Assembly (NCBI GenBank): GCA_020060765.1
Contig: JAGUZQ010000034.1
Span: forward strand, 62,001 to 126,000
Length of the DNA: 64,000 bases
Direction of reading: 5' to 3'
Source of the DNA: Planctomycetota bacterium
GTDB lineage: Bacteria; Planctomycetota; SZUA-567
The notes beneath the pieces are model-generated. The model saw nothing but the letters and a program-made list of their open reading frames with translations, made no database searches and had not been told where the DNA came from. Within the stretch, counting starts at the first letter, position 1; the number at the start of each line of letters is the position of its first letter. A program made the position numbers and the translations under genes. Below are positions 4,462-49,470 of the stretch, one piece after another.

Positions 4462-4497
4462 ATACAGATCCCCGCAAACAAGGGGGCAAAACGTACA

Positions 4498-4857
4498 AGG
4501 GACTAAGGCTCTAAGGCTCTAAGGGACTAGGGGACTAAGACTCTGGGCGAAGATTTCCCCGGTTACCGCAAGTTTTTCGCAATCGGGGTTATCGGCTCCG
4601 AGCCTGCAAAAAAATCTTAGAACCTGTTTTCAATAAAGTCCTTTTTTGAACCAATCAGAGGTTAGATAAAAGAAAAAACTTGTACCGTAATTTCTGCGAA
4701 GGCAGGAATCCAGGAGGTGTTGCGTACGGTTTCCCCACTGGATTCCCGCCTTCGCGGGAATGACGATTCGTACGCCTGGTTCTTTTAAACATTGTGCCAG
4801 TAAAACGGGGGTTAATTGAAAACAGGTTCTTAGTCCCCTAGTCCCTCAGTCCCTAAA
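4498..4857. repeat. Island bounded by inverted GGGACTAAG / CTTAGTCCC short-period repeats (island E1)
   Basis: The left arm (4498-4545) is a run of units such as GGGACTAAG and GCTCTAAG. The right arm (4829-4857) is a run of the inverse units CTTAGTCCC and CAGTCCCT. The inner sequence 4540-4620 aligns with the reverse complement of the interior of the island at 49321-49470, so the two are copies in opposite orientation. This copy is interrupted by an inserted element (4616-4833). The island fills almost the whole gap between the deoxyribosyltransferase-like gene and rlmN. Confidence 0.75.
4616..4833. mobile_element. Small non-autonomous element with AACCTGTTTTCAAT terminal inverted repeats, inserted in island E1
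   Basis: AACCTGTTTTCAAT (4621-4634) and its exact inverse (4815-4828) bound the element. CTTAG stands directly outside both ends (4616-4620 and 4829-4833), as expected of a 5-bp target duplication. Removing the element and one CTTAG restores an uninterrupted CTTAGTCCC right arm of the host island. Inside are an imperfect and a perfect ATTCCCGC-type palindrome (4687-4713 and 4738-4764) in inverted orientation. It encodes no transposase, so it is a MITE-like element. Confidence 0.65.
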
Positions 4858-4894
4858 CCGATTTGCCCCCTTTTATCGTGAGGCATGGTACTAA

Positions 4895-5962
4895 ATGAAA
4901 CCCCGATTGCTGGATTTGACCAAGGACGCCCTGGAAGAATGGTTGCTGAAATCCGGGGAGAAAAAATTCCGCGCCAAACAGGTTTGGGAGTGGCTGCACG
5001 TCAAACGGGCTTCGACTTTCGACGAGATGTCTAATGTCTCCAAGGAATTGCGCGCCAAACTGGCCGACTCGTTCGATCTGCGGACTCTCGGCGTGGAGGA
5101 CACCCGCGTTTCCGCCGATGGCCTGACGGAGAAATGGCTTTACTCCGCTTTGCTGGACGGCGGAGAAAAAAGTTTTTTTGAAACCGTGCTGATCCGCGAG
5201 AAACGCGAAAAACGCCGTACCGTCTGCGTCTCCAGCCAGATCGGCTGCGCCATGGCCTGTTGCTTCTGCGCCAGCGGCTACGGCGGTTTCGACCGCAACC
5301 TCGAAACCGGGGAAATTCTCGAACAGGTTTACCGCGCCGACGACGCCTGCCGCGAAGCAGGCGAGACACGTGGCTTGACCAATATCGTGTTCATGGGCAT
5401 GGGCGAACCGCTGCTGAATTACGACGCGGTGCTGGCGGCGGCGAAACTGCTGGCCTCGGAAGACGGCTTTAATCTCGGCGGGCGTCACCTCACCATCTCC
5501 ACCGTCGGGGTGCCTTCCGGCATTTTGCGCCTGGCCGGGGAAGGCGTGAATTTCCGCCTGGCGCTGTCGCTGCACGCGCCTGACCAGGAGACCCGCGAGA
5601 AAATCATTCCCGCCGCGAAAAACTGGAAACTGTCGGAAGTGATGTCGGCGGTGCGCGAGTTCGCCTATTCCGCCAGCCGCGACGTGACGATGGAATACTG
5701 CCTTATCCATAACGTCAACGACGGCAAGGAACACGCACGCAAACTCGTGGGGCTGCTGGAAGGCTTGCCATGCAAGGTGAATCTCATCCCGCTGAACCCG
5801 GTAGATCATTACGACGGTTGCCCGCCACCGCCGGATCGGGTGCGGGCGTTCCAGGAGGTGCTGGAAAAAGCCGGTCTTGACGCGCCGCTGCGCGCGGAAA
5901 AAGGCCAGGACATCGACGCCGCCTGCGGCCAGCTTCGCGCCCGGAAACGCGCGGGGCTTTGA
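4895..5962 (+). CDS. rlmN: 23S rRNA A2503 / tRNA A37 C2-methyltransferase RlmN
   Basis: RlmN is a radical SAM enzyme that methylates C2 of adenosine 2503 in 23S rRNA and A37 in some tRNAs. The 355 residues show an N-terminal RNA-binding region with FRAKQVWEWL, the radical SAM cysteines C118, C122 and C125 in CAMACCFC, the SAM motif MGMGEPLLNY, the TISTVG and ALSLHAP strands, and the C-terminal cysteine near residue 344 in DIDAACGQL that carries the methyl group transiently. Length is normal. The true RlmN motif MGMGEP and both catalytic cysteines argue against Cfr. It is monocistronic; the right arm of island E1 ends 37 bp before the start. Confidence 0.95.
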   Translation: MKPRLLDLTKDALEEWLLKSGEKKFRAKQVWEWLHVKRASTFDEMSNVSKELRAKLADSFDLRTLGVEDTRVSADGLTEKWLYSALLDGGEKSFFETVLIREKREKRRTVCVSSQIGCAMACCFCASGYGGFDRNLETGEILEQVYRADDACREAGETRGLTNIVFMGMGEPLLNYDAVLAAAKLLASEDGFNLGGRHLTISTVGVPSGILRLAGEGVNFRLALSLHAPDQETREKIIPAAKNWKLSEVMSAVREFAYSASRDVTMEYCLIHNVNDGKEHARKLVGLLEGLPCKVNLIPLNPVDHYDGCPPPPDRVRAFQEVLEKAGLDAPLRAEKGQDIDAACGQLRARKRAGL

Positions 5963-6178: not shown

Positions 6179-8599
6179 TTACTTTTTCGTTTCAGCAGGC
6201 AGGGGAAACAATTCGTACGGCGCCTGCGCGTAACGTCCCGCCGGAAGGCCGCCGGGGAAAAGCAGCGGCAGATTGTCAGCCAGTTTTTTCACATAGGGGC
6301 GACTGTCGCGCACTCTCCCGAACGGCCACGGCGGCGACAGATTTTCGTAACCGCACGAGGTCAGCAATTCCCGCAGGCGCGCCTGCCCGTCCCGATCCAG
6401 CCGGTACGCCTCGAAATAAGTCGAATGCAGCCGCGCCAGTTCCGACCAGTTTATATAGATATGCGTAATGCCGCGCGCGCGTAAAGACTGGTGGACGTCT
6501 TCCGCGCTTTTGCTTTTCTGCAGCAGTTCCCACAGCGGATGATTGGAAAAAACCATCGCGTATTCCACGTTTGACGGCAGCCAGAACGGGTCGGCGCTTC
6601 CCAGCAGCAGCACTTTCGCGTCCGGCGGCAAGGCGTTCAGCATTTTTTCGCGCAGGCTCCAGGGCATGTAATACGCCGCCAGCATTTTTTCCGGCGGCTC
6701 GACTCCGAGGAGGGTTTTCACCGGCGTGATTCCGTTCTGGTCACCAAACCAGTTCGTGCCGACAAATGCGGCTTGCGAAACCACGCAGAACAACAGCGCC
6801 CACACTCCCGCCGCCAGCCCCAGGCCGCGCGCGACGCCGCCGGATTGGCTCGCCTCTTTCCGCAGAAACGCGAACCCGCAGCCAGAGAGAACGCAGCCGA
6901 GCAGGAAAACCTGGTGGTAAAACCTTTCCAGCCGGTGGGTCAGGAAAAACCACAACAGAAAACCGCCGACATACCAGCCCAGCACGGCGAGGATTTTTCC
7001 TCTTCCGTCAGTCCGGCGCAGGCAGAGCAGTCCCGGGAGAAAAACCAGTCCCAAGACGCTGAGCGCGCTGCCCGACGCCCAACCCGGCCAATCGCCGCCG
7101 AGGCCGACGCGCACGAATTGTTTCGCCATCTCGACCGCGCCGAAACCGGTCGCGTGATGCGCCTGATAGAAACGCTGTTCCTGTTGCGCGCTCCAGTTTT
7201 CGACAGAGAATGCCTGGTTCCACAGCGGATAAAACGGGTTGCCGGCCTCGGCGAAATTCCGCAGCAGCCACGGCGACAGCGTCAGCCAGCAGACCGCGCC
7301 CAGCGCCAGCGCGCCCTTGACTCTCGCGCTTCGCGGAATCCCTTCGACCGGCGTCAGCAGCGCCAGCAGGAACAGCGGGCCGCCGACAAAGATCAGTCCC
7401 GTATATTTGCAGCACGCCGCCGCGCCGGAAAATATTCCCGCCAGCGCGCACAACGCCAGAAAGTTCTCGCGTTTTTCCGTCCACGCAATTGCCAGGCACA
7501 GCAGCGCCAGCAGCAGGTAAGCGCCCAGCCCTAACTCCACGTAAAGTTTCATCGCCAGCGCGTCGGTCTGCAGGCAAGCCAGCGCCAGCGCGCAGGCCAG
7601 CATCCCTCCCGTCGTGCCGGACTTTGCTCCCGCCAGCCGCCGCACGCAGAGAAAAATCGCCAGCAGCAATAGCGGCAAAAATGCGAGGTTCAGCAGTTTC
7701 GCCACCCAGATTCCGTGCGACGCCGCCAGCGGAATGCCGTGATAACCGCCGGTCAGCATGAACGCCAGCAGGGTCAGCATCTCCATGCCCAGCGGGAAAC
7801 CGGAAAAGGCGTTGTGCGGCAAAACCCGGATCCTGCCCAGGTCGAAATATTCGCGCGGCAACTGAATATGATATTCCAGCACGTCGTAATCCAGCGGCGG
7901 GAAAAACGCGCCCGGCAGCAGAAACACCAGCCCCGCCAAGACAAATCCCAGCGCGCACCAGCCGAGTGCGGGAGATTCTTCACACTGGGCGAAAAACTCG
8001 CTGACCGCCTCTCGCAGCAACCGCCACGCGCGCCGCCCTCCCGCCGCGACACATACCGCCAGAATTCCCGCCGCCGCGCCTTGGGTAATCATACCCGCTA
8101 CGCCAGCCGCGAAGGTGGCGAATGACAGCATAAGCAATCCCAGTCCCGCCGCGATTGCCAGCCGCTCCAGCGGCGAGAAGGGAATGATTTTTACCGAAAG
8201 TTTTTCCGCTAACGCCAGGAACGCGCTTCCCGCCGACAAGGCGGCGAAAAGAATAATCAGCGTCACCGTTCCGCAAAACAACCGGGGTGGAATCAGCTCC
8301 TCATTAACCCCGGCCAGCGCGGCGCAGGCGGAGAAAGCCGGTATCAGGAAAAAAATCCGGGTGGCGCGCGGGCGCGAGGCGGCTTGCAGCTTCACCAACA
8401 GCGCGGGAATGAAAGTCATGAGCAGCAGCGGCAGCGCGATCTGCCCGTAAGCCACCGCCAGCAGGAACAACGACACCGGTTCCTCCGGGCGGGAGGAATA
8501 CAGCCGCCCCTGGCTGGAATAATAGGCCCAGAACGCCGCCGCCGTAAGCGCCAGCGCCAGCGGCAGGCGTACCCGGGAGGTCGTGGTCGCGTCATTCAT
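6179..8599 (-). CDS. Large multi-spanning membrane protein, GT-C glycosyltransferase-like
   Basis: This 806-residue protein has roughly 15 hydrophobic segments through residue 600 and a soluble C-terminal tail. After about 220 residues the motif PPLDYDVLEYHIQLPREYF appears, resembling the first periplasmic loop of GT-C enzymes (PMT/ArnT-like, lipid-linked sugar donors), in which an aspartate near the end of the first helix is catalytic. Proteins of this kind in PVC and delta-type bacteria are annotated as membrane glycosyltransferases of unknown substrate. Its ATG overlaps the pilT stop codon by four bases (ATGA), so the two genes are probably translationally coupled. The enzyme activity is an inference; a large unknown membrane protein is the safe call. 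Confidence 0.65.
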   Translation of the reverse strand: MNDATTTSRVRLPLALALTAAAFWAYYSSQGRLYSSRPEEPVSLFLLAVAYGQIALPLLLMTFIPALLVKLQAASRPRATRIFFLIPAFSACAALAGVNEELIPPRLFCGTVTLIILFAALSAGSAFLALAEKLSVKIIPFSPLERLAIAAGLGLLMLSFATFAAGVAGMITQGAAAGILAVCVAAGGRRAWRLLREAVSEFFAQCEESPALGWCALGFVLAGLVFLLPGAFFPPLDYDVLEYHIQLPREYFDLGRIRVLPHNAFSGFPLGMEMLTLLAFMLTGGYHGIPLAASHGIWVAKLLNLAFLPLLLLAIFLCVRRLAGAKSGTTGGMLACALALACLQTDALAMKLYVELGLGAYLLLALLCLAIAWTEKRENFLALCALAGIFSGAAACCKYTGLIFVGGPLFLLALLTPVEGIPRSARVKGALALGAVCWLTLSPWLLRNFAEAGNPFYPLWNQAFSVENWSAQQEQRFYQAHHATGFGAVEMAKQFVRVGLGGDWPGWASGSALSVLGLVFLPGLLCLRRTDGRGKILAVLGWYVGGFLLWFFLTHRLERFYHQVFLLGCVLSGCGFAFLRKEASQSGGVARGLGLAAGVWALLFCVVSQAAFVGTNWFGDQNGITPVKTLLGVEPPEKMLAAYYMPWSLREKMLNALPPDAKVLLLGSADPFWLPSNVEYAMVFSNHPLWELLQKSKSAEDVHQSLRARGITHIYINWSELARLHSTYFEAYRLDRDGQARLRELLTSCGYENLSPPWPFGRVRDSRPYVKKLADNLPLLFPGGLPAGRYAQAPYELFPLPAETKK

Positions 8600-36489: not shown

Positions 36490-36731
36490 TGCTGAGTTAT
36501 TTAGTTGCTGAGAGGGCGAAGGTGGCTAGTTATAAGGAGCTGACCGTATGGCAGAAATCTATCGCTTTGGTTAAGCATATTTACCTGGCAACTGAGGATT
36601 TTCCCTCCAAGGAAATGTACGGGCTAACATGCTGGAAGCATTGCTTCGCAAAGTAAAGGCGCAAAAATGAACTCTCGACTCAACAGGCTCAGTAACTCAG
36701 CAACTCAGTAACTCAGCAACTCAGCAACTAA
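36490..36731. repeat. Island bounded by inverted CTGAGTTA / CAACTCAG short-period repeats (island E4)
   Basis: The left arm (36490-36511) has CTGAGTTATTTAGTTGCTGAG. The right arm (36688-36731) has five or more units of the inverse, AACTCAG with CA or TA between them. The core carries the decayed four-helix-bundle gene at 36522-36670. The right-arm units are direct repeats of about 8 bp with no spacers, so this is not CRISPR. Confidence 0.75.
36522..36670 (+). pseudogene. Decayed four-helix-bundle gene (23S rRNA intervening-sequence protein, S23 family)
   Basis: Reading from GTG at 36522 gives ASYKELTVWQKSIALVKHIY, then LATEDFPSKEMYGLT, closely matching the N-terminus of the TIGR02436/S23 four-helix-bundle family (KELTVWQKS, FP-E-YGLT). 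The frame then ends at a TAA (36654). In the +2-shifted frame MLEALLRKVKAQK with a stop at 36668-36670 looks like the family's C-terminus. The central 60-70 residues that should hold the SIPSNIAEG motif are missing. This is therefore an internally deleted, out-of-frame remnant. Such genes were first seen in intervening sequences of 23S rRNA genes; here it is inside a repeat-bounded intergenic island. Confidence 0.8.
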
Positions 36732-49320: not shown

Positions 49321-49470
49321 GGAGGGACTAAGGCTCTAAGGGACTGAGGGACTAAGAAAATCTTTTTGCGGATGCGGTGTCGATAACCCTCGATTGAGAA
49401 AATTTTTTGGCAAATAGGGAAGCCTTCGACCAGAGTCTTAGTCCCTTAGTCCCTTAGCGCCTTAGTCCCT
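49321..49470. repeat. Island bounded by GGGACTAAG / CTTAGTCCC repeats (island E2)
   Basis: The left arm (49321-49357) and right arm (49436-49470) are inverse arrays of the same unit as in island E1. In reverse complement the interior aligns with E1 along most of its length (CTAAGACTCTGG, TTCCC, GGGTTATCG, TGCAAAAA). This copy has no inserted element. It occupies most of the 370-bp gap between the glmU-like operon and the alcohol dehydrogenase gene, whose ribosome site lies about 10 bp beyond; the remainder carries no other recognised feature. Confidence 0.75.

Follow-up and report, generated by a model that had tools for sequence, protein, structure and literature searches.

The S23 protein, a four-helix bundle whose structure has been described as a toroidal pentamer (PMC4990558), is encoded in intervening sequences (IVSs) of the 23S rRNA genes of Coxiella, Leptospira and others. 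The complementary ends of these IVSs form a stem that is cut by RNase III, insertion into the transcribed gene is tolerated, and the S23 open reading frame (ORF) decays while the insert stays (PMC4990558). A separate body of work concerns heptameric repeats, the commonest long simple repeats, for which a slippage origin has been proposed (Mrazek 2007, as cited in PMC4679880). They include TAACTGA arrays upstream of start codons in Beggiatoaceae, for which the relevant passages give no mechanism (PMC4679880), 186 GGGAATC arrays with 70 convergent inverted pairs in Xanthomonas campestris, transcribed arrays of Xanthomonas and Nostoc that form G-quadruplexes (G4s) in vitro (PMC4692102), and the heptanucleotide GGGACCG elements of Geobacter metallireducens (PMC2700814). 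The explanations offered in the passages on these repeats are polymerase slippage, G4 formation and translational control (PMC4679880, PMC4692102, PMC2700814), and the same passages leave the repeats unconnected to S23. A term search of PMC4679880 and PMC4692102 returned neither 'S23' nor 'four-helix-bundle', and no paper linking S23 genes with heptamer arms was found in the open-licence literature; subscription papers were outside the search, so priority is not certain.

Within the window (the whole stretch of 64,000 nucleotides that was analysed), positions 36490–36731 hold a broken S23 (TIGR02436/PF05635) gene with its centre deleted and inverted CTGAGTTR octamer arms on either side. The left arm (36490–36513, plus strand) consists of two to three degenerate units of the (CTGAGTTR)n type, GTGCTGAGTTATTTAGTTGCTGAG, and aligns to an intact S23 cassette, equipped with the same arms, on contig C9 of the same genome. 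It is followed on the plus strand by an N-terminal gene fragment with a GTG start (36522–36628), a deletion junction (36628/36629) at which the frame shifts and approximately 210 nt of the S23 centre are absent relative to the C9 copy, and a C-terminal fragment, MLEALLRKVKAQK and a stop codon, in a different frame (36629–36670). The right arm (36686–36731, minus strand) comprises approximately five AACTCAGY octamer units, the inverse of the left arm, with which it forms a stem. Allowing up to two mismatches, GTTRCTGAGTTRCTGAG occurred five times in the window, always inside this island, against 0.02 occurrences expected.

The N-terminal frame, spanning approximately the first 36 S23 residues (SYKELTVWQKS...EMYGLT), matched PF05635 (E=6e-7) and NF008911 (E=1.5e-10), while its match to TIGR02436 (E=2e-4, 21 bits) was slightly below the 24-bit cut-off because the frame is a fragment. 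The C-terminal fragment corresponds to the last 13 residues and stop, and 12 of the 13 residues are identical to the end of the C9 S23 protein. Over 238 aligned positions, arms included, the island and the C9 cassette were 78% identical with a single central gap of approximately 210 nt. Based on this alignment, the island is a decayed relative of the C9 cassette and, since its centre is deleted and its ends lie in different frames, a pseudogene of the S23 family. The first-pass annotation, which had proposed a decayed S23 gene in an inverted-repeat island, with its two termini in different frames and its centre lost, was thus borne out by the profile matches, the arms and the C9 alignment. Its description of short-period inverse arms also stood, with corrections: the unit spans 8 nt, and the island consists entirely of the coding remnant with its arms. 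Folded as RNA, the arms gave a long paired stem (-76.7 kcal/mol, z=-2.5), as do the complementary ends of the rRNA IVSs. The neighbouring genes encode an SPFH/virion-core-like protein and UbiB, placing the island among protein genes and not inside an rRNA gene. It is very probably a decayed member of a family of S23-associated elements armed with short repeats. These elements resemble the IVSs in having an S23 ORF in an insert with pairing ends, in being tolerated within transcribed genes and in losing the ORF while the insert persists. They differ in that the arms are built of tandem units of 7 or 8 nt, that the unit varies with the locus, and that many islands without S23 have such arms.

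A TIGR02436 profile search of the source genome identified S23 genes on contigs C9 (intact; 124-codon open frame, 129.5 bits), C16 (intact; 120.7 bits) and C55 (broken by a frameshift). All three were flanked by inverted short-period arms, with units of CTGAGTTG (8 nt), GGGACTAR (8 nt) and CAGTCTC (7 nt), respectively; full-length S23 genes lacking arms, which would have counted against the original proposal, did not occur. The genome contains three arm families, each with an S23 member. A further match on C15 (26.7 bits) was rejected as an S23 gene, as this frame lies among flagellar operon genes and has no arms.

Based on pattern searches and sampled regions, the arms were far commoner in this genome than the S23 gene. 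At up to two mismatches, GGGACTARGGGACTA gave 359 matches compared to 11 for the reversed control pattern, and forward matches were often followed by a reverse match within approximately 100 bp. CTGAGTTR arms surrounded about 12 islands with other cores, one of these cores occurring three times on C9, and also one coreless hairpin. Two further islands in the window, of the same build as 36490–36731, have GGGACTAR arms and non-S23 cores. The first (4497–4854, unstranded) includes a nested palindromic element, AGAACCTGTTTTCAAT...ATTGAAAACAGGTTCT, in which 16-bp ends, AGAACCTGTTTTCAAT, surround a dRS3-like palindrome, GGATTCCCGCCTTCGCGGGAATGAC, and which interrupts the core. The second (49323–49470, unstranded) has a short core; there are perhaps 100 GGGACTAR-armed islands of this type without S23 in the genome. 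Locus L036 contains three CTGAGTTR-armed islands within 6 kb (1346–1500, 4871–4990 and 7026–7145) that have a common core, TTTGCGCGCGGAGGATT...GCTTGCGCAGCTCTTG. Since most arm-bounded islands carry no S23, it is the arms and not the gene that define the element.

The association was then followed through 159 S23 loci, 80 from named species genomes and the others from the window's phylum and viral contigs. The named species spanned Acidobacteriota, Bacteroidota, Chloroflexota, Pseudomonadota, Planctomycetota, CPR, ANME-1 archaea and others, and the sample was biased towards relatives of the C9 protein. A tandem array of 7 or 8 nt was present within 200 bp of the S23 gene at 133 of the 159 loci, compared to nine of 159 windows located 800–1000 bp away (p=4e-50); the thresholded array detector found no arms at the other 26. 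The period was 7 at 112 and 8 at 21 of the 141 loci with any array; the unit of the window island has 8 nt, and that of the short tandemly repeated repetitive sequences (STRRs) and LSSRs has 7 nt. Inverted matches of at least 11 nt between the two flanks were found at 94 of 157 loci (60%) compared to 37 of 1500 mismatched-flank pairs (2.5%). The inverted arms look alike from both strands, and their orientation relative to the S23 gene is therefore uninformative; only polarity towards the core counts. Where AGK (AGG or AGT) was present on one strand only, it pointed to the core at 88 loci and away from it at five, a polarity that random microsatellites would not keep. No convincing 23S rRNA motif was found near any of the 159 loci, setting them apart from the IVSs, for which RNase III excision has been demonstrated in rRNA only; a location within 23S rRNA was rejected, the only hits being chance matches to a 17-nt motif.

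Twelve plasmid loci (ten cyanobacterial, the others from Gemmatirosa and Azospirillum) were read by eye, and 11 had arrays, for example, TAGGGAG, AGGGAAC, CAGAAGT and TAGGGTG; L341 had none. At L344 (Pseudanabaena galeata pPg_01), where the S23 island lies between cas6 and cas4, the arms were direct rather than inverted. The island of L343 (Nostoc edaphicum pNe_5) lies between nrdB and nrdA. In a Bacteroides genome (L119, 3449–3823), a second, different S23-like ORF, MSKQLMRSGTSVGANITEAFDGQS, which resembles the 2rld branch, was seen 1.1 kb downstream of the first. The cyanobacterial plasmid loci are flanked by heptamers like the STRRs of that phylum. The arrays share with cyanobacterial STRRs and the Xanthomonas, TAACTGA and Geobacter repeats a unit of 7, intergenic location, convergent inverted pairs and dozens to hundreds of copies per genome, and differ from them as published in being tied to S23 genes. 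X. campestris, a species with GGGAATC arrays, itself encodes an S23 protein (XCC0516, PDB 2gsc), which was matched by the S23 alignment at E=5e-37.

Occupancy was compared in random 20-kb samples from six S23-rich and eight S23-free genomes of one phylum. There were 19 period-7 arrays in 860 kb from the S23-rich genomes and none in 955 kb from the S23-free genomes, while arrays of other periods did not differ (18 and 13, respectively). As arrays cluster by genome, the contrast was counted per genome, giving three of six S23-rich against none of eight S23-free genomes with period-7 arrays (p=0.055), which is suggestive of S23 presence going with heptamer arrays. In a pair from the same genus, nine period-7 arrays were found in the genome with 11 S23 genes (G024) and none in the genome without S23 (G020).

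All ten S23 loci inspected for arms in G024 were armed, with differing units, and in G039 each of the ten inspected loci was flanked by an array on one side or both. Among ten S23-less arrays of G024, four had a unit exactly equal to that of a resident S23 gene, two of the four being rotations of one unit; none of 3000 draws of equally many units from foreign loci reached four of ten. Islands without S23 were found to use the units of resident S23 genes in two genomes. Identity of the arm units rose only above approximately 60% S23 protein identity, and many such pairs were syntenic. Coupling between S23 sequence and arm unit was accordingly rejected as evidence of recognition, since the unit tracks S23 only in close, often syntenic relatives, for which common descent suffices.

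The alternative that survives best, although we consider it unlikely, is a passive origin in which slippage and template switching in hairpins both make the arms and keep them alike, with S23 merely carried along. As slippage predicts, the unit changes between loci and the length of the arms varies; in many islands the arms enclose unrelated cores or REP-like inserts, and coreless hairpins exist (L036 near 8627; L171). Slippage alone, however, leaves the tie to S23 at 84% of loci unexplained and gives no reason for the fixed inward polarity of AGK, for the missing period-7 arrays in the S23-free samples, or for the units that S23-less islands share with resident S23 genes.

A mover other than S23, either a REP-associated Y1 transposase or, by analogy with Avd, a reverse transcriptase, with S23 as an accessory or passenger, appears less probable again. 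Avd, an accessory of the reverse transcriptase of diversity-generating retroelements, has a fold related to S23. REP-like palindromes do occur within islands, and transposase targets typically have inverted ends with a fixed polarity. The elements also recall MITEs and the REPINs that accompany RAYTs, in being small, palindromic and high-copy, mostly gene-less with rarer gene-bearing members, but their ends are short tandem arrays and not unique sequences, and their gene encodes a four-helix bundle for which we know of no nuclease activity. Unlike REPINs, the islands appear not to require a Y1 transposase for their presence: G002 (88% complete) has dozens of islands and no Y1_Tnp match, whereas the S23-free genomes G020, G037 and G067 have 5–13 Y1_Tnp matches and no heptamer arrays. 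The source genome has a single Y1 match. A RAYT/Y1 transposase was rejected as the mover, as the distribution of Y1_Tnp does not track the islands.

Filled and unoccupied sites, which the first-pass annotation had suggested comparing in close relatives, were found at two positions. Both G013 and G002 carry an AATTCAC-armed S23 island that starts directly downstream of the groES stop and terminates ahead of groEL. The same junction is a plain spacer of approximately 50–70 bp with neither S23 nor AATTCAC arms in G012, G014, G003 and G007, and holds a coreless hairpin of another heptamer in G005. Dozens of further islands with AATTCAC arms were present in G002. The second position is inside the gene for a DNA methylase in a single genus: an S23 island was present in G167 and others, and G124, G141, G217 and G209 had other short inserts or none. 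The difference in occupancy at this site may reflect gain or loss. The elements thus have multiple copies together with filled and unoccupied sites in relatives, as expected of MITE-like sequences. At the window locus itself, ubiB was found in 16 relatives, none with a recognized SPFH neighbour, and no comparable empty site was available because this neighbourhood is not conserved among them. A genus-level search at G102 returned unrelated repeats only. Neither a target-site duplication nor a circle was observed; the flanks of the compared genomes had diverged too far to place the insertion point to the base.

The congeners G009 and G005 (L162/L163), whose genes are approximately 95% identical, had wholly different content at four consecutive intergenic junctions, and intergenic turnover between them is therefore very fast. 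The inserts at these junctions include palindromes of the GGCTTTAGCCC type. At one junction with AATTAAC arms in both genomes, the arms enclose a short core in G009 and a decayed S23 C-terminus in G005, and the G005 remnant matches the window island in its state. The earlier idea that decayed islands are left behind thus extends to a second genome. The associated idea, that S23 genes move as repeat-bounded cassettes outside rRNA genes, was supported with the amendments that most arm-bounded islands lack S23 and that movement is deduced from presence or absence and copy number. That the arrays are instead host control elements (G4 formers, translation signals or terminators) through which S23 is regulated as an ordinary gene is the least probable alternative: it draws on the G4 formation and transcription described in the passages on Xanthomonas and Nostoc heptamers (PMC4692102) and on the position of TAACTGA arrays before start codons in those on Beggiatoaceae (PMC4679880), but some units are not G-rich (AATTCAC, AGTTTTT and AGTAAAC all occur among S23 arms), the arms stand in inverse orientation on both sides of unrelated cores, and islands at one junction differ between relatives as close as G009 and G005.

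Fourteen loci have the S23 gene embedded in a long reading frame of a host gene, open from one end of the element to the other. The hosts were pglX of BREX-1, with two different sites (L151, L129, L152, L108, L083, L123 and L210), DNA methylases of type III or CcrM-like (L218, L219 and L222–L224), a DNA polymerase III alpha/error-prone (DnaE-type) polymerase (L209) and an Ig-domain protein (L079). In all 11 cases where both genes are on the same strand, the host is read in the +2 frame with respect to S23 and has no stop codon along the S23 gene, compared to seven of 145 other loci (p=1e-12, a value that ignores shared descent); these cases represent approximately five independent insertions. 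Since the host frame is stop-free across S23, the element can be a double-coding insert. Rickettsia palindromic elements likewise insert in frame into protein genes, but here the inserted sequence specifies a second, conserved protein in a different frame.

The explanation that we favour by a modest margin is that these are widespread selfish hairpin elements with short-tandem-repeat ends, in which S23 is the gene of the coding members and its pentamer aids their spread. Their ends consist of inverted arrays in which a unit of 7 or 8 nt, with the general form NAGKNNN(N), is directed to the core on both strands. Coding members have a single gene, for the S23 four-helix-bundle protein, and the far more numerous other members have a short non-coding core or none. 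To our knowledge, no nuclease or polymerase activity has been ascribed to S23. Most likely, the toroidal pentamer would bind the repeated units of its own arms, either as an RNA stem or as single-stranded DNA; a five-subunit ring facing a run of near-identical units of 7–8 nt would be a natural fit. An action of S23 on the arms seems to us about as likely as not. By analogy with an autonomous element that serves MITEs, S23 may help arm-bounded sequences to copy to new sites in trans and so drive the spread of the armed elements, with a nucleic acid as the presumed intermediate.

Insertion would be tolerated for two reasons: the elements land in spacers or join surface loops in frame, and paired arms may be cut from transcripts in the way that RNase III removes the S23-bearing IVSs of 23S rRNA. 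Such RNase III-like cutting could render intergenic and operon insertions harmless. Once a site has no further need of its S23 gene, the gene would decay by internal deletion and leave the arms behind, as in the window island.

More tentatively, the elements may form a distinct class of prokaryotic mobile element with inverted ends whose unit of 7 or 8 nt drifts between elements but keeps AGK directed inward. Its only gene would be that of S23, a non-nuclease pentamer that reads the repeat register instead of a fixed sequence and mobilizes S23-less copies in trans. The cyanobacterial, Xanthomonas and other heptamers would then be non-coding members and the rRNA IVSs a special case, and some copies would be double-coding and read through by host genes such as pglX and dnaE in the +2 frame.

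The tie between S23 and heptamers connects a protein of unknown function with bacterial repeats that have gone unexplained for many years. Two old puzzles, the role of the S23 protein and the reason why 7-nt tandem repeats, often in convergent pairs, are the most frequent long simple repeats of many bacterial genomes, become one testable question. If the repeats are indeed due to S23, this would account for many small intergenic insertions and would provide an example of a gene that has entered other genes without closing either reading frame.
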